Source of the DNA: a virus
DNA length: 35,974 bases
Reading direction: 5' to 3' (one strand)
IMG/VR virus record: IMGVR_UViG_3300017752_000062
Span: 1 to 35,974 of that record
Positions 3,783 to 16,353 of this stretch are shown here, piece after piece. The translations under genes and the position numbers were made by a program. The notes under the pieces were generated by a model, which was given only the letters and a program-made list of their open reading frames with translations, was not told the origin of the DNA and ran no database searches. Position 1 is the stretch's first letter; every line of letters begins with the position of its first letter.

Positions 3783-3965
3783 ATGGTTATGAAAAAGAAA
3801 AGCAAGGGCTATCGTGCTGGCGGCAAGATGAAAAGCAAAGGTTATCGTGCTGGTGGTAAAATGAAAAGTAAAATGATGAGTAAGGGAGGCAAGGCTTCAG
3901 GAATGTCAGTAGCAAAACTACGGACTGAAGCTAAGAAAAAGGGGTACAAGTTGGTTAAAGCTTAA
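3783..3965 (+). CDS. 60-residue lysine/glycine-rich repeat protein
   Basis: AGGAG lies eight bases before ATG 3783. The product is extremely basic and contains two identical 11-residue units, KSKGYRAGGKM (residues 6-16 and 17-27), then KSKMMSKGGKASGM and a helical tail ending KGYKLVKA. The DNA units (3798-3830, 3831-3863) differ at synonymous positions. No enzymatic domain is present. It resembles the small Lys/Gly proteins further downstream in this window, and a DNA-binding or internal head role is plausible but unproven. Its stop overlaps the next start (TAATG), so the two are coupled. Confidence 0.75.
   Translation: MVMKKKSKGYRAGGKMKSKGYRAGGKMKSKMMSKGGKASGMSVAKLRTEAKKKGYKLVKA
3798..3863 (+). 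repeat. 33-bp tandem repeat in coding sequence
   Basis: Two adjacent 33-base units encode the identical peptide KSKGYRAGGKM but differ at several third-codon positions. The peptide has therefore been kept while the DNA drifted. Confidence 0.85.
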
Positions 3966-4636
3966 TGGCTTACCTGCAAAGCAATATCCCACATTTTAAA
4001 TGTTGGGTACGTCGTGAGTATACCCATAACCACGAAGCTTATCATGGAGAGTTTTTACACGCTATGGCAATTGCTGTCACAACAATGCCAAATAGATGTT
4101 TAAGTTTTCAAGTTATTTTTACTGGTATAGCACCAGAAGGAGAGGAAGAGGACACAGTACATGGTGGAGCTATGTGGGCTAGGATGCCTATCACGGCTCT
4201 TGTAGGAGATGTTCCTTTAGAAGAGTGGCCTGAACCTATGGATGTTCATAATGCTCAACCTTGGGATTGCTCCTCAAACCACCATGCAGTGTATGTTCTA
4301 GATAGAGCAACACCTTGTCCGTGGTTAGCTAAGATAGATGGTAACATGTATCCTGCTAATTATTTATTTACTGTTGACTATACAGAAAGTGAAATAGCGG
4401 ATGACCCTGCACAACATAAGCAAAGTCATGTTATGTGTTTATTAGATGCAGGAGAACGGACAGGTAATATTGTTGCACTACCTAATAATCGAGTAAGAGT
4501 AACACACCCTGCTTGGTTTGAAACAGGAGAAGGCGCACCAGACTTTAAACCTTCTGCTCACACACATTATAGTAAAAGTGATTTAGATTATACACTAGAC
4601 ACAAATAGAATATTTGATAATTTATATAATGAATAA
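3965..4636 (+). CDS. Conserved-looking phage protein of unknown function
   Basis: This 223-residue protein starts MAYLQSNIPHFKCWVRREYT. It is rich in His, Trp and acidic residues, with segments such as MPITALVGDVPLEEWPEPMD, NHHAVYVLDRATPCPWLAKI and MYPANYLFTVDYTES. It has no signal peptide or membrane helix. The even spread of aromatic residues suggests one compact, mainly beta domain. I do not recognise a named family. It is coupled by TAATG to the 60-residue basic protein and overlaps the next start. Its position between terminase and portal suggests packaging or head assembly, by location only. Confidence 0.8.
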   Translation: MAYLQSNIPHFKCWVRREYTHNHEAYHGEFLHAMAIAVTTMPNRCLSFQVIFTGIAPEGEEEDTVHGGAMWARMPITALVGDVPLEEWPEPMDVHNAQPWDCSSNHHAVYVLDRATPCPWLAKIDGNMYPANYLFTVDYTESEIADDPAQHKQSHVMCLLDAGERTGNIVALPNNRVRVTHPAWFETGEGAPDFKPSAHTHYSKSDLDYTLDTNRIFDNLYNE

Positions 4637-4931: not shown

Positions 4932-7435
4932 TGGCTACAGAAAAAAATCCATACGACCAAATACCAACTGATAATGTAATACAAATAAAAGCAGAAGACC
5001 CTATGTCTGCTAATGTTTCCTATCAAGTTGACCCTGAAACAGGAGAGGTTGAAGTAGACTTCCAAGCAGAAGGTGCGGAGATAGAAGTTGAAATTGAAAT
5101 TGAGTCTGAGTTTTATGAAAACCTTGTAGATAAACTAGATGAAGATACGTTAGAAGAAATTGGTCATACAGTAATTGATAAATTTGAAGCAGATAAAGAT
5201 TCTCGTGCTGAATGGGAGTCTATGTTTGAACGTGGTTTTGACCTTCTTGGTTTAAAACTAGAAGATACTACAGAACCTTTTGAAGGGGCTGCTACTGCTG
5301 TTCACCCACTGCTTATTGAGTCAGCTGTTAAGTTTCAATCTAAAGCATCACAAGAACTGTTTCCTTCTAAAGGACCAGTAAAAGCCCAAGTGCTTGGTAA
5401 TGCTACAGTAGAAAAACAACAACAAGCTAATCGTGTTCAAAACTTTATGAACTATCAAGTTACAACACAGATGCCTGAATACTTTGATGAGTTTGAACGT
5501 ATGTTGTTTCACTTACCTTTGATTGGCTCTTCAATTAAAAAGATTTACTATGACTCAAGTCTTGGTCGTCCTGTCTCTGAGTTTGTTCCTATTGACCAAT
5601 TCTATGTATCTTATTATGCTTCCGACCTTAGAAGGGCAGATAGATATACACATGTTATATATCGTAGTCCTGTTGATATAGCTCGTTGTATGGAAGCTGG
5701 CATGTATGCTGATATTGAACTTCCTAATGCTGGTATACCTGAATTATCTGGTATGGCATCTAAGATGGATAATGTATTAGGTTTATCACCAGCAGGAGAC
5801 AATGACCCTCAGTATGTATTACTTGAACAACATTGTTATCTAGAACTGCCGGAAGATAAAATGCATGAAGGTAAAACCGCATGTCCTTATATTGTAACTA
5901 TAGAACAATCAAGTGGTTCTGTTTTATCTATTCGCCGTAATTGGAATGAGGGAGATGAACGATATGAGAAGAAGATGCACTTCACCCATTACCGATATGT
6001 TCCTGGTTTTGGTTTCTATGGGCTGGGGCTTATTCACTTTCTTGGGAATCTTACTATGTCTGCCACTGCTGCTATGCGCAGTCTTTTGGACGCAGGGCAG
6101 TTTGCTAATCTACCGGGTGGATTTAAAGCTAAAGGAGTACGAATCGTGGGTGACAATGACCCGATTGCTCCGGGTGAGTTTAAAGAAGTGGAAGCTACGG
6201 GCGTTGACCTATCTAAGGCTATTGTTCCTCTTCCCTTTAAAGAGCCTTCTGGCACTTTGTTTAACATGCTCAGTTTTGTTACAGGGGCTGGTCAAAAATT
6301 TGCAGACTCCACAGAACAAGTAATTTCAGACAGTGGAGGCTATGGTCCTGTAGGCACAACTATGGCATTGCTTGAGGCTTCAAGTAAATTCTTTACTGCT
6401 ATTCATAAAAGACTACACAAGGCACAGGGAGATGAGTTTAAGATTCTTGCTCGTGTTGACTATGAGTATCTACCTAATGAGTATCCTTATAAACTTCCGG
6501 GTTGTCTTGAAAAAATATTTAAGAAAGACTTTAATGGTGATGTAGATATTATTCCAATATCTGACCCTAATATTCCATCAAATGCCCAGCGTATGATGCT
6601 TATTCAAATGGTACAACAGATTGCAGCACAGTCTCCTCCTGACATGTTTGATATGGAAGAAATTAATAGGATGCTTCTTACAACTGCAAACGTACCTAAT
6701 GTAGATAAAATAATGCCTTTGAAAAAAGAAGCAATGCCCCAAGACCCTTTATCAGATATTAAAGACGCTAATAAAGGAACTCCTATCAAAGCATTTAAAG
6801 GACAGAACCATGATGCACATATGCAGGTTAAAGGTTCTTATATACAAGACCCAATGAATCAACAAACAAATCCTGCATTTGCTAAAGTTGCTGGTGCGTT
6901 ACAAGCTAATATATCAGAACATGCAATGTTAAAATATGAAGAGCAAATTGAAGGATTAACTATGCAAGCTATGCAAAATCCACAAGCTGCGGCTATGTTA
7001 TCGCAAATGCCTGACCCCGTTGCTGCAATGCAAGCACAAGCTGCACAACAAATTATGCAAGCAGGTATGGCTATGGCACAACAAAAACAAGCTGGTACAC
7101 CTGAAGCTCAAATGGTACAACTAGAATCACAACGCCTTGGTGTTGAACAAGATAAAGTACAAGCTCAGATGGCTAATAAACAAGTTGATGCTGCGCTTAA
7201 ACAACGTGACCTTGATTTAAAAGAACAGAAAATTATTCTTGATGCGCAGAAAGCTGGTGCTAGTGACGCACTAAAGGATGCTCAGAAAGAAGAGGACAGA
7301 AATAATAAACGTGTTCTCAAAGCTATGGACTTGATTGGTGACTTAATGAAGGCACAAGAGAGCAATGAACTAGAGGAGTCAAAAGTAGTTGCAAATCTTT
7401 TAATGAACTTTATTAAAGAAGGTAAAAATATTTGA
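4931..7435 (+). CDS. Portal protein
   Basis: At 834 residues this is the expected size for a podovirus-type portal, the dodecameric ring through which DNA enters and leaves the head. After an acidic N-terminus (about 35-65) comes FEGAATAVHPLLIESAVKFQ and SKASQELFPSKGPVKAQVLG (117-156), a signature of this portal type. Residues 200-600 hold the wing and stem, including FVPIDQFYVSYYASDLRRAD and a GYGPVGTTMALLEASSKF helix. The C-terminus (about 660-834) is a long Gln/Met/Ala-rich helix-forming tail. The gene follows the basic protein by TAATG overlap and ends overlapping a TTG-started gene. Confidence 0.9.
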   Translation: MATEKNPYDQIPTDNVIQIKAEDPMSANVSYQVDPETGEVEVDFQAEGAEIEVEIEIESEFYENLVDKLDEDTLEEIGHTVIDKFEADKDSRAEWESMFERGFDLLGLKLEDTTEPFEGAATAVHPLLIESAVKFQSKASQELFPSKGPVKAQVLGNATVEKQQQANRVQNFMNYQVTTQMPEYFDEFERMLFHLPLIGSSIKKIYYDSSLGRPVSEFVPIDQFYVSYYASDLRRADRYTHVIYRSPVDIARCMEAGMYADIELPNAGIPELSGMASKMDNVLGLSPAGDNDPQYVLLEQHCYLELPEDKMHEGKTACPYIVTIEQSSGSVLSIRRNWNEGDERYEKKMHFTHYRYVPGFGFYGLGLIHFLGNLTMSATAAMRSLLDAGQFANLPGGFKAKGVRIVGDNDPIAPGEFKEVEATGVDLSKAIVPLPFKEPSGTLFNMLSFVTGAGQKFADSTEQVISDSGGYGPVGTTMALLEASSKFFTAIHKRLHKAQGDEFKILARVDYEYLPNEYPYKLPGCLEKIFKKDFNGDVDIIPISDPNIPSNAQRMMLIQMVQQIAAQSPPDMFDMEEINRMLLTTANVPNVDKIMPLKKEAMPQDPLSDIKDANKGTPIKAFKGQNHDAHMQVKGSYIQDPMNQQTNPAFAKVAGALQANISEHAMLKYEEQIEGLTMQAMQNPQAAAMLSQMPDPVAAMQAQAAQQIMQAGMAMAQQKQAGTPEAQMVQLESQRLGVEQDKVQAQMANKQVDAALKQRDLDLKEQKIILDAQKAGASDALKDAQKEEDRNNKRVLKAMDLIGDLMKAQESNELEESKVVANLLMNFIKEGKNI

Positions 7436-10282: not shown

Positions 10283-11227
10283 ATGGCTATTAATCGTGCA
10301 AGTATTGCAAAAGAGCTTCTCCCTGGTCTTAACGCCGTGTTCGGCCTTGAGTATGGGGAAGTCTCTGATGAACACGCTCCACTGTTTGAAACTGAAAACA
10401 GTGACCGTGCATTTGAAGAAGAGGTTCTCTTCACAGGCTTCGGCACTGCACCTGTAAAAGGTGAAGGTGCTGCTGTTTCTTATGACGATGCTTCTGAAAG
10501 CTTTACATCTCGTTACACACACGAGACTATTGCTCTTGGATTCGCTGTCACAGAAGAAGCTATGGAAGATAATCTTTATGACACATTCGCCAAGTTACGT
10601 GCCAAAGGTTTGGCTCGTGCTATGGCTAATACAAAACAAGTTAAAGCTGCTGATGTATTTAACAATGGTTTTAACGCAAGCTTTGCTGGTGGTGATGGAC
10701 AACCGTTCTTCTCCGCTTCGCACCCAACTATCGGTGATGGCAACCAAAGCAACCTGCTTACAGGTGCTGACTTGTCAGAAGCTTCACTGGAAACTGCTCT
10801 TATCAGCATTTCCAAAATCAAAGATGACCGTGGTATCTTAATCGGCGCACAAGCCGAAAGCCTCCACATTCCATCTGACTTGGCATTTGTCGCTGACCAA
10901 ATCTTGAACAGCACAATGTCAACAACAATTGGGGTTAACCCAACAACTGCAGCTAATGGTGCAACAAATGTTAATGACATTAACTCCATTCGTAATCAAG
11001 GTCTTATGCCGGGTGGGTTCTTTGTGAACCGCCGTTTCACGGATACTAATGCCTTCTACATCAAAACTGATGTTCCGAATGGTGCTAAAATGTTTGTACG
11101 TTCACCACTGCAAACTAAGATGGAACCAGATTTCGATACAGGAAACCTTCGCTTTAAAGCTCGTGAGCGTTATAGCTTTGGCTTCTCTGATTGGAGAGGT
11201 TACTTTGGTAATGCTGGTTCTTCCTAA
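10283..11227 (+). CDS. Major capsid protein (Mu gpT-like, HK97 fold)
   Basis: The 314-residue protein carries patterns of the Mu-like major head subunit family: LGFAVTEEAMEDNLYDTFAK (85-104), a DGQPFFSASHPTIGDGNQSN loop (about 135-155), DDRGILIGAQAESLHIPSDL, NQGLMPGGFFVNRRFTDTNA, and the C-terminal RFKARERYSFGFSDWRGYFG (about 289-308). It would form the icosahedral shell, aided by the scaffold and co-chaperonin encoded upstream. A weak GGGAG site precedes ATG 10283. No head protease gene is seen nearby. The gene is followed by a strong terminator, as expected for a highly expressed product. Confidence 0.9.
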   Translation: MAINRASIAKELLPGLNAVFGLEYGEVSDEHAPLFETENSDRAFEEEVLFTGFGTAPVKGEGAAVSYDDASESFTSRYTHETIALGFAVTEEAMEDNLYDTFAKLRAKGLARAMANTKQVKAADVFNNGFNASFAGGDGQPFFSASHPTIGDGNQSNLLTGADLSEASLETALISISKIKDDRGILIGAQAESLHIPSDLAFVADQILNSTMSTTIGVNPTTAANGATNVNDINSIRNQGLMPGGFFVNRRFTDTNAFYIKTDVPNGAKMFVRSPLQTKMEPDFDTGNLRFKARERYSFGFSDWRGYFGNAGSS

Positions 11228-11337: not shown

Positions 11338-11643
11338 ATGACAACAAATGTTAGAGTATCTTTTGTGTCTACGTCAGGAGATGCAGTTGATGCGGCAACT
11401 GGAAAAGCTGTAAAAGATACAAGAATACGTGCTATTCATGCTACAGGTGTTGGTGACTTTATAATTGCTGGAACATCTACAGACCCTTTTGGTACTGTAA
11501 CAGGTAATATAATTAAGTTTACAAATACAACAGCAAATGATTTAACAGACCAAAGCTATAGTGATAATGGTATTAGAATGACAGGAACTGTATCTGTTGC
11601 TTTACCAGTTAGCGCAGCAACTGTGACTATTTATTATGGCTAA
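11338..11643 (+). CDS. Small beta-rich virion-type protein
   Basis: ATG 11338, with AGGAG seven bases upstream, is preferred over a GTG at 11308 that lacks a site and overlaps the promoter. The 101-residue protein begins MTTNVRVSFVSTSGDAVDAA and ends TVSVALPVSAATVTIYYG. It is rich in Thr, Val and Ala, with alternating hydrophobic residues typical of a small beta sandwich. No family is recognised. It is the first gene after the post-capsid promoter and overlaps the adaptor gene by eight bases, so it may be a head-completion or neck protein. That role is inferred from position only. Confidence 0.7.
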   Translation: MTTNVRVSFVSTSGDAVDAATGKAVKDTRIRAIHATGVGDFIIAGTSTDPFGTVTGNIIKFTNTTANDLTDQSYSDNGIRMTGTVSVALPVSAATVTIYYG

Positions 11644-12289
11644 TTATACATATCTTGTAAATGATATTATTGAGACTACAGAAAATGATGGCACAGAGTT
11701 TGTCAATCATATTCCTAAACTTGTTAATCGTGCAGAAGAGAGACTAACAAAAGCTCTTGATGATTATGGTCTTGTAACTGTGACATCTATTACGCTTTCT
11801 GCTGGAACAAATGATTATACATTACCAACAGGAACAAGACTAGTTAAGAATATTAATATTACAAACAATGGCACTAAAATTAATTTACTTCAAAGAACGG
11901 ATGAATTTATAAATGATTACTGGCCTGTATCAGCAAGCACTGGAACTCCCAAGTACTATGCAAAGAGAACAAATACGCAAGTTCGTTTTGCCCCTACAGC
12001 TAGTGCTGATTACAGCGGAGAACTTGTATACATTACTAGGCCAACAACTTTGACTAGCGCAACAGATAGTAATTACTTTAGTGAGTTTTGTTATGACGCT
12101 TTGTATGCAGCTTGTATGTCAGAGGCTTTAGGTTTTATGAAAAACTATACAGCTAAACAAGTATATGAACAACAATATCAAAACTCAGTAGGTTTACTGC
12201 GTAACCAATCAAGAAGAACACGCCGTGATGATATGCAAACTCCTGCTTCGACAGGTGGCGGCGATAACACAATCGAAGGAGGATTGTAA
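11636..12289 (+). CDS. Head-tail adaptor (phage adaptor/gp11-like)
   Basis: The 217-residue product starts MANYTYLVNDIIETTENDGT, then EFVNHIPKLVNRAEERLTKA, a beta section with NDYTLPTGTRLVKNINITNN and TPKYYAKRTNTQVRFAPTAS, and a helix YAACMSEALGFMKNYTAKQV near 160-180. This order (N-terminal helices, beta insert, C-terminal helices) fits the adaptor proteins that bind under the portal, such as T7 gp11 and its relatives. The C-terminus is Arg- and Gly-rich and disordered. It starts inside the end of the preceding gene and ends in TAATG with the next. A second, P22 gp4-like adaptor lies at 15682. Confidence 0.7.
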   Translation: MANYTYLVNDIIETTENDGTEFVNHIPKLVNRAEERLTKALDDYGLVTVTSITLSAGTNDYTLPTGTRLVKNINITNNGTKINLLQRTDEFINDYWPVSASTGTPKYYAKRTNTQVRFAPTASADYSGELVYITRPTTLTSATDSNYFSEFCYDALYAACMSEALGFMKNYTAKQVYEQQYQNSVGLLRNQSRRTRRDDMQTPASTGGGDNTIEGGL

Positions 12290-13062
12290 TGGCAGGTAAA
12301 ACAGAAATAATAAAAGCAATAGCAAGCCTTGGTAAAGCAGCTGCTAATAAACAATTTGGTAAAAAAGCTGTTGACTCTGCAGTTAAGTCTGAAAAAGCTA
12401 AAGAACGTTTTGCGAAAGCGCAACTACGTAAAAAGAAAAAAAGTGATGCAGAAAAAAAATTAAAAGATAAAAAAATAAAAAGTAAAGGTGCGGGAGCTAC
12501 AGGAGTTCGCCGCCGTCAAAAAATGAGGGCAGAAGATAAAGCGAAGGCAGCATATGAAAAGTTTGAAAAGGCTACTAGTAAAATTAAAAAAACTGAATCT
12601 ATCAAAGACTTTCTTAAACGTGGTGGAGAAATTAGTGAGCTTCCTCGTTCAATGCAAGCATTTTATAGAAAAGAAGTTGAAAAAGAATTAAAAGGTCAAA
12701 CATCTAAACCTCTTCGTGAACTTCGTCAATCACAAACTGATAGAAAAAAAAGAAGACAAGCTCGTAAACTTACAGAGGGTAAGGAAACTACAGAAGCTTT
12801 TGAAAGAAGAATATCACAAGAAGCAAGAGCAGGTGGTGTAGAAGATGTAGGAGCTAGAGGTTCTCAACGTGGTTCACAACGTGACCCTCTTTATGAATAT
12901 GAGCGTAGTCAAGCTGCTGCGTTTCTTAGAGGTAAAGATTCACCTCAGTCAGAATCAAATATTCAAGATTTAGTAGAAATGTTTACAACCAAAAAGAAGG
13001 GCGGTACTTTAGGTCGTGGTATGGGTAAAGCTCTTCGAGGTGGTGGAAAGGTAATAAAATAA
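12289..13062 (+). CDS. Lysine-rich protein with C-terminal GGGK tag (257 aa)
   Basis: This is the first and largest of a cassette of very basic proteins. It begins MAGKTEIIKAIASLGKAAAN and continues through long Lys/Arg/Ala-rich helices such as RKKKKSDAEKKLKDKKIKSK. It has a more acidic middle, then a tail TKKKGGTLGRGMGKALRGGG and KVIK. It has few aromatic residues and no recognisable domain. The C-terminal motif is shared with the next protein. It starts and ends in TAATG overlaps. Given its charge and the neighbouring head-tail genes, it may bind packaged DNA or the inner head surface, but this is inference. Function unknown. Confidence 0.7.
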   Translation: MAGKTEIIKAIASLGKAAANKQFGKKAVDSAVKSEKAKERFAKAQLRKKKKSDAEKKLKDKKIKSKGAGATGVRRRQKMRAEDKAKAAYEKFEKATSKIKKTESIKDFLKRGGEISELPRSMQAFYRKEVEKELKGQTSKPLRELRQSQTDRKKRRQARKLTEGKETTEAFERRISQEARAGGVEDVGARGSQRGSQRDPLYEYERSQAAAFLRGKDSPQSESNIQDLVEMFTTKKKGGTLGRGMGKALRGGGKVIK

Positions 13063-13574
13063 TGTCAAAAGGTAAACTTGTAAGAACTCTTCTTCAAAAA
13101 CAAGGCAAACAAAAGAAACCAATAATGGATGATAAAGGAAAACCTGTAGCTAGAGATAAAACTACTCCTGAGTCTAAAGATGCTCGTGCGCCTAAAAGTA
13201 AGCAAACTAAAAAACAAGTAAAAGCAGATACTGCTGCAAAAGCTAGAATAGGTAGAGCTAAAGATGTAAAAAGAGAAATGCAAAAGCGTAGTAAAAGCGT
13301 TATACGAGAACGTGATACTAGACCTAGCGTAAATACTTTATCTAAGATAGACCAAAAAGAAACAGAGTATGATAAGTTTGTTATAGGTGTTAAAAGAAGT
13401 TTAATTAGTAAACAAAGAAAAGGAGAACCTGCTACTTATAAAGGCACAGATTATTCTGATGTTCTTTCTAAAAGAAAAGGCATTAAATCTGGAACTACTA
13501 AAAAGTCAGGGGGCGGTAAACTTCGTGGAATGGGTGTAGCTCTTCGTGGCGGTGGAAAGGTAACGAAAAGATAA
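13062..13574 (+). CDS. Lysine-rich protein with C-terminal GGGK tag (170 aa)
   Basis: It begins MSKGKLVRTLLQKQGKQKKP and is strongly basic and disordered-looking through about residue 90. A short ordered-looking stretch follows (EYDKFVIGVKRSLISKQRKG). It ends KSGGGKLRGMGVALRGGGKV plus TKR, nearly the same tail as the preceding gene's RGMGKALRGGGKV. The shared tail on otherwise unlike bodies suggests a common assembly or localisation signal. Both junctions are TAATG overlaps, and the DNA for the tail (GGTGGAAAGGTAA) is also purine-rich enough to act as a binding site for the next gene. Function unknown. Confidence 0.7.
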   Translation: MSKGKLVRTLLQKQGKQKKPIMDDKGKPVARDKTTPESKDARAPKSKQTKKQVKADTAAKARIGRAKDVKREMQKRSKSVIRERDTRPSVNTLSKIDQKETEYDKFVIGVKRSLISKQRKGEPATYKGTDYSDVLSKRKGIKSGTTKKSGGGKLRGMGVALRGGGKVTKR

Positions 13575-13825
13575 TGGGAAAAAGAATGAGTAACTCTAGT
13601 GATGAAAAATTAAGAAAAGAAAGTAATCCTACCAGAAAACAAAAAACTGTAGACCAAGATGCTATGGATACTACAAAACTTCTTAAAGAAGAAGGTGTTG
13701 AAAATGTTATGAATAAGTTAGGTGGAAAAAAACAAAAAGATGGTTCTTATGTTTTTAAAAGCACTGGTGGTTTAATTAATGGTCGTCCTACAGGTAAAGG
13801 CAAAGGAGCAGCAAGGTCAATATAA
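13574..13825 (+). CDS. Small basic protein with GG-containing tail (83 aa)
   Basis: The product begins MGKRMSNSSDEKLRKESNPT, has a helical middle with KLLKEEGVENVMNKLGGKKQ, and ends FKSTGGLINGRPTGKGKGAA plus RSI. The tail resembles other GG-x-I tails in this cassette. It could also start at the second Met (MSNSSDEK), but the TAATG overlap with the preceding stop favours ATG 13574. It has no membrane segment and no family that I recognise. Coupled overlaps on both sides place it in the same translation unit, and an internal virion or DNA-contact role is possible. Confidence 0.65.
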   Translation: MGKRMSNSSDEKLRKESNPTRKQKTVDQDAMDTTKLLKEEGVENVMNKLGGKKQKDGSYVFKSTGGLINGRPTGKGKGAARSI

Positions 13826-14220
13826 TGGCAAAAAAATTTCCTGATTTAACTGGTGATGGTAAAGTTACTCAAAAAGATATCCTTATGGGTAGGGGTGTTT
13901 CTTTAGCTAAAGGTGGACGTATTGCTTATAAAAAAGAAGGTAGCAGTATTAATCAAGATAAAATTGATAAAGTTGCTAAAGGTTTAAAAAAAGCTAGTGC
14001 AACACATGCTAAACAATCTAAAGTTTTATCTACTGTAAAATTAAAAACAGGAAGCCGTGTAAACGAAGCAGGTAACTATACTAAACCAGAAATGAGAAAG
14101 CGTCAATTTAATCGTATTAAAGCTGGTAGTAAGGGCGGCAAGCCGGGTCAGTGGTCTGCTCGTAAAGCTCAGATGCTTGCAAAAGCTTATAAAGATGCAG
14201 GTGGAGGCTACAAATCGTAG
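13825..14220 (+). CDS. Basic protein with a dockerin-like calcium loop (131 aa)
   Basis: Residues 7-18 (DLTGDGKVTQKD) match the calcium-binding loop D-x-[NT]-x-D-G-x-V-x-x-x-D seen in dockerin and EF-hand-like repeats. Only one such loop is present, whereas dockerins have two. The next part has KGGRIAYKKEG, a GG motif like its neighbours. The C-terminal half (YTKPEMRKRQFNRIKAGSKG then GKPGQWSARKAQMLAKAYKD) is basic and helical, ending AGGGYKS, and matches a pattern I recall from other marine phages. Calcium binding is inferred from the loop alone. It overlaps the preceding gene by TAATG. Confidence 0.7.
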   Translation: MAKKFPDLTGDGKVTQKDILMGRGVSLAKGGRIAYKKEGSSINQDKIDKVAKGLKKASATHAKQSKVLSTVKLKTGSRVNEAGNYTKPEMRKRQFNRIKAGSKGGKPGQWSARKAQMLAKAYKDAGGGYKS

Positions 14221-14228
14221 TATGATAT

Positions 14229-14519
14229 ATGGCAAAATCAAAGTCACAAGAGTCTCTTACCAACTGGACAAAACAAAAATGGAGAACAAAGAGTGGTAAG
14301 AAGTCAAGCAAGACGGGCGAAAGATACTTACCAGAGGCGGCTATTAAAGCACTCACCCCACAGGAATATGCGGCGACTTCGAGAGCTAAAAGAAAAGGAA
14401 CTAAGGCAGGAAAGCAATTTGTTAAGCAGCCTAAAGCTATAGCAAAGAAAACAGCACAATATCGTAAAGCTAAAAAAGGTGGTAAGATTGGTAAAGCACC
14501 GCACAATAGAATATACTAA
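14229..14519 (+). CDS. Basic protein with SLTNWTKQKW motif and APHNR tail (96 aa)
   Basis: It begins MAKSKSQESLTNWTKQKWRT and continues SGKKSSKTGERYLPEAAIKA, LTPQEYAATSRAKRKG and QFVKQPKAIAKKTAQYRKA. It ends KKGGKIGKAPHNRIY. The middle resembles small lysine-rich proteins known from marine phages and some giant viruses, whose role is unknown. The tail is almost identical to that of the next gene. It has an eight-base gap from the preceding gene, with no strong Shine-Dalgarno sequence. It has no cysteines and no membrane segment, and probably contacts nucleic acid or capsid. Confidence 0.7.
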   Translation: MAKSKSQESLTNWTKQKWRTKSGKKSSKTGERYLPEAAIKALTPQEYAATSRAKRKGTKAGKQFVKQPKAIAKKTAQYRKAKKGGKIGKAPHNRIY

Positions 14520-14530
14520 GGAGAAGTAAA

Positions 14531-14803
14531 ATGGCAATATCTAGTTTGATAAAAGCAGCAAAAAAAGCAGGAATGAAAAAATCTACAGCAAAAAAACCAA
14601 AAGTAGAAAATGCAAAACCAAAAACTTTTGAATCTGAACTTAAAAATATTCGAGGAATGGCTTTAAAAGATGAAACAAGAAATAATAAATTATTACAACT
14701 TTATAAGAAATATGATAAAAAAATTCCAGCAAAACTTGCTAAACCTGTTCAAAGAAAAAAGGGTGGTAAAATAGGCGGCGCACCTCATAATAGGTTATAT
14801 TAA
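14531..14803 (+). CDS. Lysine-rich protein with APHNR tail (90 aa)
   Basis: AAGGAG precedes ATG 14531. The product begins MAISSLIKAAKKAGMKKSTA, has a helical middle (FESELKNIRGMALKDETRNN, KLLQLYKKYDKKIPAKLAKP) and ends RKKGGKIGGAPHNRLY. The last 15 residues match the tail of the preceding protein except at two positions, although the bodies are unrelated. Either a tail-encoding segment was copied, or two proteins converge on one binding partner. It ends in TAATG with the next gene. Function unknown. Confidence 0.7.
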   Translation: MAISSLIKAAKKAGMKKSTAKKPKVENAKPKTFESELKNIRGMALKDETRNNKLLQLYKKYDKKIPAKLAKPVQRKKGGKIGGAPHNRLY

Positions 14804-15090
14804 TGTCTAAAAAGAAAGACCCAAGATTAGCAAAAGCAGGAGTAACTGGTTATAATAAACCAAAGCGCACTCCTAATCACAAAACTAAATCTCATGTTGT
14901 TGTGGCTAAAGAGGGTGACAAAGTAAAGACTATTCGATTTGGTCAGCAAGGAGTTAGAGGTGCTGGTAAGAACCCAACAACTGCAAAAGATAAAGCTCGT
15001 AAGCGGTCTTATTATGCACGACATAATGCACAAGGTAAACCTACAACAAAACTAAGTGCAAAATATTGGAGTCATAAAGTTAAATGGTAA
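14803..15090 (+). CDS. Conserved basic phage protein (IRFGQQG type, 95 aa)
   Basis: It begins MSKKKDPRLAKAGVTGYNKP and has KRTPNHKTKSHVVVAKEGDK, VKTIRFGQQGVRGAGKN, KRSYYARHNAQGKPTTKLSA and the ending YWSHKVKW. The SHVV-KEGDKVKTIRFGQQG pattern and the KYWSHKVKW ending recur, as I remember it, in small proteins of many marine phages. No biochemical role is known to me. The central strands could form a small SH3-like or OB-like barrel, which is a guess. It is coupled by TAATG to the preceding gene and closes the lysine-rich cassette. Confidence 0.75.
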   Translation: MSKKKDPRLAKAGVTGYNKPKRTPNHKTKSHVVVAKEGDKVKTIRFGQQGVRGAGKNPTTAKDKARKRSYYARHNAQGKPTTKLSAKYWSHKVKW

Positions 15091-15115
15091 AGAGGGTAAT
15101 AGAGAGGATAAATAA

Positions 15116-15583
15116 GTGGACCCCATCAGTACAGGATTGGCAGGTATTGCATTAGTACAAAAGTCTGTTGACTTTATTAAATCTAATATACAAACTGCAA
15201 ATGATATTAAAGATATTGCTGGGGCTATTGACGGATTGTTTCAAGGTGAGAAACAAATTCAAAAAGATAGGTTTGGCGATAAATCTATAATAGGTCAAAC
15301 TAAAGATGTAGCAACAAGTGTTATTGATGCAAAGTTAGCTCAAGAAAGTATGGATGAAATGAGACAGCTTGTTGATGCTAGATTTGGATTTGGAACATGG
15401 CAAGAGATTATTAATGAAAGAGCCAAGCGTATCCAAGAAGAAAAAGAAGCTGAAAAAGAAAGAGCTAGGATAGCAAGACAGAAACGTCAGGAAATAGTAG
15501 ATAACTTTCAAACAGCTGGTATAGCTGCTGCTATTATAGGTGTTGTTATATTAGCAATATTAGTATATTTTAAACTAGGATAA
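15116..15583 (+). CDS. Tail-anchored membrane protein with coiled coil
   Basis: GTG 15116 is preceded by AGAGAGG at eight bases. The 155-residue protein starts MDPISTGLAGIALVQKSVDF, has a helical region with LAQESMDEMRQLVDARFGFG and TWQEIINERAKRIQEEKEAE, then a charged coiled coil (about 105-130). It ends in one hydrophobic helix (AGIAAAIIGVVILAILVYFK, about 134-153). I have seen the QESM-EMRQLVD-RFG-GTW pattern in other marine phages, without a function. The C-terminal anchor suggests insertion in the cell membrane with the body in the cytoplasm or the virion. It sits between the basic cassette and a second adaptor. Confidence 0.75.
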   Translation: MDPISTGLAGIALVQKSVDFIKSNIQTANDIKDIAGAIDGLFQGEKQIQKDRFGDKSIIGQTKDVATSVIDAKLAQESMDEMRQLVDARFGFGTWQEIINERAKRIQEEKEAEKERARIARQKRQEIVDNFQTAGIAAAIIGVVILAILVYFKLG

Positions 15584-15585
15584 TT

Positions 15586-15681
15586 ATGGTTGTATCAAGA
15601 AGCTCTATATCACAACAAATAAAACGCCCTCCCTCTAAAAAGAAAAAGAAGAGGAATAAAAAGAAAGCAAGGAGACCATAA
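15586..15681 (+). CDS. 31-residue highly basic peptide
   Basis: ATG 15586 to TAA 15679-15681 encodes MVVSRSSISQQIKRPPSKKK and then KKRNKKKARRP. The next gene begins on the very next base, and the AAGGAG serving that gene is inside this one. The opening VSRSSISQQI followed by a Lys/Arg tail is a pattern I recall for short genes at this place in related marine phages. It is too short for standard gene calling. The charge suggests nucleic-acid contact. Packing without gaps on both sides supports translation. Confidence 0.65.
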   Translation: MVVSRSSISQQIKRPPSKKKKKRNKKKARRP

Positions 15682-16353
15682 ATGGCAACATCAGGTACAT
15701 ATAGCTTTTCAATGGACATTGATGAAGTAATCCAAGAAGCTATGGAAATGATAGGAGGCGAAGCTACACTTGGCGAAGAACCTCGTTCTGCTCGTAGGTC
15801 TATTAATTTGCTTTTACAAGATTGGCAAAATCGTGGTATTCAACTCTGGACAATTGGTACTACTGCTGTAACTGTAACAACAAGCACAACTAGCTATGAC
15901 CTTGGTTCAGAAAACATTGATGTACTTGAAGCTGTAGTAAATAGAAGTAATATTGACTTACAGCTTGAACGTATTAGTATGGAGGAGTATTTAAAAGTTC
16001 CTCGTAAAGGACAGACAGGCAGACCAACACAGTTTGCTGTTAGAAGAGAACGTGATAAATCTGTTGTATTCTTATGGCCTGTTCCTGAAAATAGTACAGA
16101 TGTTGTTAAGTTTGAAACTGTAAAATATATACAAGATGTAACAAGGTCAAACCAAAATGCAGATGTGTCTCGTAGATTCTTACCTTGTCTTACTGCTGGC
16201 ACAGCTTACTTTATGTCTATGAAACGACCCGGTGTAGATGCAGGACGTATTCAAATGTTAAAACAAGAATATGAAGAAAGGCTAATGAGGGCGCAAGAAG
16301 AAGATAAAGAACGTGCAAGTATGTACATCACACCTCGTCTGAACTATGTATAA
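15682..16353 (+). CDS. Head-tail adaptor, P22 gp4-like
   Basis: The 223-residue protein shows the order of P22 gp4-type tail accessory factors: an N-terminal helix MDIDEVIQEAMEMIGGEATL, ARRSINLLLQDWQNRGIQLW (about 37-56), the strand region TTSYDLGSENIDVLEAVVNR, GRPTQFAVRRERDKSVVFLW followed by PVPE, then helices ending ERLMRAQEEDKERASMYITP. Such proteins attach beneath the portal and keep packaged DNA inside. AAGGAG lies upstream. Together with the gp10-like gene at 25352 it points to a P22-like tail. It overlaps the next gene by TAATG. Confidence 0.8.
   Translation: MATSGTYSFSMDIDEVIQEAMEMIGGEATLGEEPRSARRSINLLLQDWQNRGIQLWTIGTTAVTVTTSTTSYDLGSENIDVLEAVVNRSNIDLQLERISMEEYLKVPRKGQTGRPTQFAVRRERDKSVVFLWPVPENSTDVVKFETVKYIQDVTRSNQNADVSRRFLPCLTAGTAYFMSMKRPGVDAGRIQMLKQEYEERLMRAQEEDKERASMYITPRLNYV

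Follow-up and report, generated by a model that had tools for sequence, protein, structure and literature searches.

Shared terminal peptides on unlike basic proteins at a variable head-gene locus of a marine phage lineage

The T4 internal proteins IPI, IPII and IPIII are small and basic, have unlike bodies with a like short terminal peptide, and are accessory and poorly conserved between related phages (PMC9026906). Encapsulin cargo-loading peptides are about 10 residues long, stand at the C-terminus or sometimes the N-terminus of unlike cargo, and occur beside an HK97-fold shell gene (PMC7355545).

The proteins analysed here have in common with the T4 internal proteins a short terminal peptide on unlike basic bodies. 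However, the T4 tags are N-terminal, whereas nearly all copies of the present tags are C-terminal. The T4 tags are also cleaved by the gp21 protease and are of one main type, whereas five or more classes can be told apart among the present tags, which are known from sequence alone. Family matches of the head genes brought up no separate prohead protease. As with encapsulins, unlike proteins encoded next to a shell gene carry a conserved terminal peptide, but encapsulins are cellular compartments, whereas here the shell is a phage capsid and several tag classes coexist. By analogy, the tags probably act as capsid-targeting sequences do in T4 or cargo-loading peptides do in encapsulins; membership of neither group is claimed.

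The closest known systems also include the small basic phage proteins of DUF6321 and of the families phrog_14910, phrog_17747 and phrog_7595, to which the bodies of the 14229, 13825 and 14803 proteins, respectively, belong (genes are named by their first nucleotide). The three phrog families are also found in HMO-2011-type phages and cobaviruses. Members of phrog_17747 in cultured phages are not fused to an EF-hand-like part, whereas the 13825 protein is.

The window and its basic genes

The window, that is, the whole stretch of DNA analysed, is an IMG/VR contig of 35,974 bases with genes of a marine phage for packaging, head, tail and lysis. Besides fibre genes, its gene calls include the following, given by start position.

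2196, terminase
4931, portal
7619, GroES
8098, candidate scaffold
29145, DNA ejection protein
34902, lysozyme

The capsid protein is 51–55% identical to those of the pelagiphages HTVC023P and HTVC027P, the roseophages CRP-901 and CRP-902, and DSL-LC04, with 52–55% for HTVC023P, CRP-901 and DSL-LC04, and the window is therefore placed in the wider group around the HTVC023P type. By sequence comparison, the phage lineage is distantly related to HTVC023P and HTVC027P. Since a relative has a contig of 57 kb, the window probably holds only part of the genome. The basic genes lie in a hypervariable slot bounded by two conserved head or tail genes, as listed below with net charges in brackets.

10283–11227, + strand, major capsid protein, phrog_371 (E=3.8e-19), N-terminus MAINRASIAKELLPG
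11636–12289, + strand, conserved virion protein, left slot boundary, phrog_2941 (E=1.8e-18)
12289–13062, + strand, 257-residue basic protein (+37) with an RGMG tag; close relatives keep the body
12994–13059, + strand, Tag 1 of the 12289 protein, KKGGTLGRGMGKALRGGGKVIK
13062–13574, + strand, 170-residue basic protein (+34) with an RGMG tag; relatives have another body
13506–13571, + strand, Tag 1 of the 13062 protein, SGGGKLRGMGVALRGGGKVTKR
13574–13825, + strand, 83-residue basic protein (+9) ending in GGLINGRPTGKGKGAARSI, an ending seen on a single body family only
13825–14220, + strand, 131-residue basic protein (+23), phrog_17747 C-terminus (E=1e-33), no modular tag
14229–14519, + strand, 96-residue basic protein (+24), phrog_14910 body (E=2.2e-37) with APHNR tag
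14472–14516, + strand, Tag 6 of the 14229 protein, KKGGKIGKAPHNRIY
14531–14803, + strand, 90-residue basic protein (+20), APHNR-tagged, gene absent or with another body in relatives
14756–14800, + strand, Tag 6 of the 14531 protein, KKGGKIGGAPHNRLY
14803–15090, + strand, 95-residue basic protein (+23), untagged, phrog_7595 family (E=9e-35)
15586–15681, + strand, 31-residue basic poly-lysine mini-protein MVVSRSSISQQIKRPPSKKKKKRNKKKARRP, N-terminus resembling that of the capsid protein
15682–16353, + strand, adaptor-like protein, right slot boundary, phrog_12985

The 15682 protein is 31–40% identical to annotated adaptor proteins of cultured relatives, and a homologue of the 11636 protein is present in L010, L020, L049, L066 and L067 at 93–96% identity (tblastn). 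A PDB sequence search with the capsid, 11636 and 15682 proteins gave no usable match.

An earlier note on this DNA had described seven adjacent, small and strongly basic proteins at 12289–15090, mostly joined by TAATG overlaps. All seven open reading frames are present and basic, and the overlap occurs at five of the seven starts, the exceptions being 14229 and 14531. The two RGMG tails (RGMGKALRGGGKVIK and RGMGVALRGGGKVTKR) and the two APHNR tails are likewise as it had claimed. It overlooked an eighth basic mini-gene, 15586–15681, which lies between 15116 and 15682.

Tblastn with the 12289 body against cultured phages returned no match. The 13825 protein consists of an EF-hand-like N-terminus (DLTGDGKVTQKD), a helix-like middle and the phrog_17747 C-terminus, and so unites parts that are separate mini-proteins in the cultured pelagiphages HTVC033P and HTVC027P; its KGLKKASxTHAKQxK segment is a protein of 36–42 residues in both. 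The phrog_14910 homologues of the 14229 protein in cultured phages stop just short of the tag. A member of the 14803 family in L064 resembles a portion of phrog_220, a family annotated as minor head protein and DNA pilot (E=1.7e-9). AlphaFold models of the 12289 and 14229 proteins are of low confidence (mean pLDDT 55 and 63), and the tags, at pLDDT below 50, are disordered in these models.

The N-terminus of the eighth protein, MVVSRSSISQQI, ranks best of 1061 candidate starts against the capsid N-terminus MAINRASIAKEL, and its orthologues in G002, G004, G006 and HTVC023P likewise rank first. Position 7 is Q in both the capsid protein and the mini-protein of HTVC023P, and S in both in the window. 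Shuffled queries did as well in 0 of 200 trials for HTVC023P and 2 of 200 for G006, so the similarity is significant there; for the window alone, 40 of 200 did as well, which is not significant. The searched stretches of HTVC027P, DSL-LC04 and G005 contain no eighth gene with a capsid-like N-terminus. Where it occurs, the sequence similarity suggests an inner or scaffold contact for this protein.

Constant tags on changing bodies

The tails were searched as DNA patterns, without specifying a stop codon, over 2.9 million viral contigs of IMG/VR. The RGMG pattern matched in 56 contigs and the APHNR pattern in 10. In almost every match the RGMG tail (RGMGxALRGGGKV) is in frame 4–5 residues from the C-terminus, and the APHNR tail is in frame 2 residues from it; the exceptions are a few N-terminal RGMG copies. 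With a follow-up pattern, GGAPHNRxY is exactly C-terminal in 21 of 21 ORFs. All 25 ORFs found to encode FIxSLYKDK have it one residue before the stop, and lineage genes adjoin them; the background is about seven further matches that fall in no matching ORF. Thus the tail-motif search that the earlier note had called for finds the tails nearly always C-terminal, not in chance scatter. The RGMG pattern gave no match in 257 Gb of bacterial and archaeal genomes.

N-terminal RGMGxAxRGGG occurs on a small basic protein in the same neighbourhood in the more distant relatives L034, L045, L058, L062 and L078 (DSL-LC04). Gp51 of HTVC023P (L075 7481–7864) ends in SRGGGAAVRGMGFKGVF, apparently a rearranged form of the tag. 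Slot proteins of cultured relatives include gp50, gp51 and gp53 of HTVC023P and WJZ48052–48056 of DSL-LC04. Tblastn of the tails alone against cultured phages gave no match, but its low-complexity filter may mask sequences of this kind. TGHTDYR, the tail of CRP-345, was tried as a further tag in cultured phages and found only itself and noise.

SYRGYGxARxG, RGTGAALRGFGKGYK and FIxSLYKDK are further C-terminal tags on unrelated bodies. Bodies were clustered by single linkage (E<=1e-3, low-complexity masking), a procedure in which divergence beyond detection is indistinguishable from replacement; the clusters number at least 5 for RGxGxAxRGFG, 5 for RGYG, 8 for SLYKDK and 14 for HNRLY, and at least 9 for RGMG, whose contigs were gathered through the tag itself, so that its counts are not a census. 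The claim of unlike bodies with like tails is therefore strongly supported and extends to at least five tag classes. Endings 4 (MGGSLNxR) and 7 (TGxGxGAAR) were rejected as modular tags and are taken as ordinary C-termini, because each is confined to one body family.

The RGMG-tailed genes sit between the homologues of 11636 and 15682 wherever the flanks are readable, and the number of basic genes in this interval varies between relatives. Of the 131 basic genes in 36 complete slots, 116 have one of the seven listed endings, and the order of the endings is nearly fixed. APHNR genes are also found between terminase and portal in relatives. There the tagged gene is absent from the window and is a clean insertion with its own ribosome-binding site in L124, whose DNA is about 98% identical to the window on both sides. 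Window nt 3965–4636, between terminase and portal, match phrog_3704 (annotated as ferredoxin, E=3.8e-29). CRP-901 lacks basic genes in the interval from capsid to adaptor; therefore the cargo is not essential to this particle type. In HTVC027P (L127 20690–23461) a run of small, mostly basic genes lies between portal and GroES, not after the capsid gene.

Close relatives reveal how bodies change under a constant tag. L011, L015, L017 and L070–L072 are about 92–100% identical to the window in the capsid, 11636 and 15682 proteins, with 91–100% for the 11636 protein taken singly, and 82–100% in the 12289 protein. At the 13062 position the bodies of L070, L071 and L072 are unrelated to that of the window (z 0.4–2.2), while 15–16 of 17 tag residues are identical. 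At the 14531 position the close relatives have a different body or lack the gene. In L010, whose capsid protein is 100% identical, an RGMG-tagged gene at 5984–6952 (− strand) encodes a LysM-domain protein; a lysine-proline-threonine repeat is also present in it.

The tails differ in DNA far more than in peptide. The two APHNR tails of the window have synonymous differences at 8 of 15 codons and nonsynonymous ones at 2, and a comparison of the RGMG tails of L070 with each other gives 6 synonymous and 2 nonsynonymous changes over 14 codons; five RGMG peptides are encoded by 24 distinct DNA sequences. Since unrelated bodies keep near-identical tags and the codon differences are mostly synonymous, selection acts on the tag peptide. 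Among slot proteins with neither of the searched-for tails, 100 pairs of unrelated bodies, not independent of one another, share a 6-mer within the last 25 residues, against 0–3 pairs after shuffling and none at the N-terminus or in the middle.

Address peptides and competing explanations

The data show modular tags selected as peptides, unrelated bodies at one gene position, a fixed location, and the presence or absence of whole tagged genes. A short terminal peptide on unlike basic bodies, encoded near the shell gene by accessory and fast-changing genes, is also the pattern of T4 internal proteins and encapsulin cargo, and the tags are therefore proposed as address peptides. The explanation we favour, at slightly better than even, is that the virion takes up interchangeable basic cargo proteins by way of their terminal address peptides. 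The 11636–15682 slot would then be an interchangeable cargo locus, with genes in the head-gene operon that are probably expressed late. A typical product would be a small lysine- or arginine-rich body with a short C-terminal address tag, in which a GG[K/R/S][V/L/I] hinge precedes a class-specific peptide, one of a few, within the last 15–20 residues. During assembly the tag would dock the protein on a conserved particle surface, most likely the procapsid interior or the scaffold, and whichever body is attached would be built in. Such bodies may neutralise the packaged DNA, and the cargo may pass into the next host together with the genome. Bodies would be free to change while the tag stays fixed.

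Docking is the role best inferred for the tails. DNA condensation by the slot proteins appears plausible from charge alone. Head entry and ejection are plausible: the genes lie beside those of the head, T4 and encapsulins set precedents, one cargo is a LysM protein, and the N-terminus of the eighth protein resembles that of the capsid protein. Against the loading reading, genes 13825 and 14803 have no modular tag, CRP-901 does without such genes at this place, and the N-terminal resemblance is not significant in the window alone and is missing from HTVC027P, DSL-LC04 and G005. The papers searched on related phages yielded no virion proteomics covering slot genes and no expression timing for them, the text on the HTVC027P transcriptome giving none for individual small genes.

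In its interpretation of unlike bodies with like tails the earlier note stands, but its extension to the ejection proteins 27526 and 29145 by way of a GG motif is dropped, since GG occurs there no more often than composition would give (compared with shuffled sequences, P=0.44 and 0.23). The related motif that it saw in the 60-residue 3783 protein is a tandem GGKM repeat and not a tag.

The tags might instead anchor the proteins outside the particle as decoration, with the basic bodies, and the LysM domain of one relative, projecting outward to aid sticking to cell surfaces or peptidoglycan. The LysM domain of the L010 tag carrier points this way, and fast-changing bodies and accessory genes suit surface display. 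However, DNA contact accounts for such a strongly positive charge, and for the place in the operon, at least equally well, and the resemblance of the eighth protein's N-terminus to that of the capsid protein would suggest an inner or scaffold contact; we consider outside decoration unlikely.

The tails could also be only a part of nucleic-acid binding, as RGG-like basic tails that condense DNA without a specific docking site. Every tagged protein is strongly positive and the tails are rich in G and R, but the conserved non-basic residues (M, A, L and V in one tail; P, H, N and Y in the other), the fixed distance to the C-terminus and the distinct tag classes, each in its own place, exceed what charge needs, making this explanation decidedly unlikely. 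That the proteins stay out of the virion and act on the nucleoid, ribosome or membrane inside the infected cell, with tags that bind a host factor, would agree with their being accessory, fast-changing small genes, as is typical of host takeover. Yet they lie in the head operon and not among early genes, and the absence of the RGMG pattern from the cellular genomes means that no host protein there has this tag; we regard such a role as quite improbable. Exchange within genes does occur, as the slot genes of L030 and L031 have common N-terminal pieces and differ near the tail, but tails without function as peptides, left over from duplication or kept as DNA homology for gene exchange, are hardly credible, as their conservation is in the peptide and not the DNA and the codon data largely refute an origin by shared DNA or duplication.

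The loading of cargo by address peptides may be taken further: several distinct C-terminal tags, whose gene order is nearly fixed within one phage lineage, could each have a docking site of their own on one particle, and a small basic body of almost any kind could then be fitted at a defined position and delivered to the host. We hold this multi-address form to be possible but rather doubtful. If the tags are addresses, they would predict which of the many small genes without known function in such a phage encode proteins that travel in the virion and reach the host. They would also provide short peptides with which proteins could be loaded into a phage head outside the T4 group, and would explain some of the small lysine-rich genes of marine phages that have no known function.
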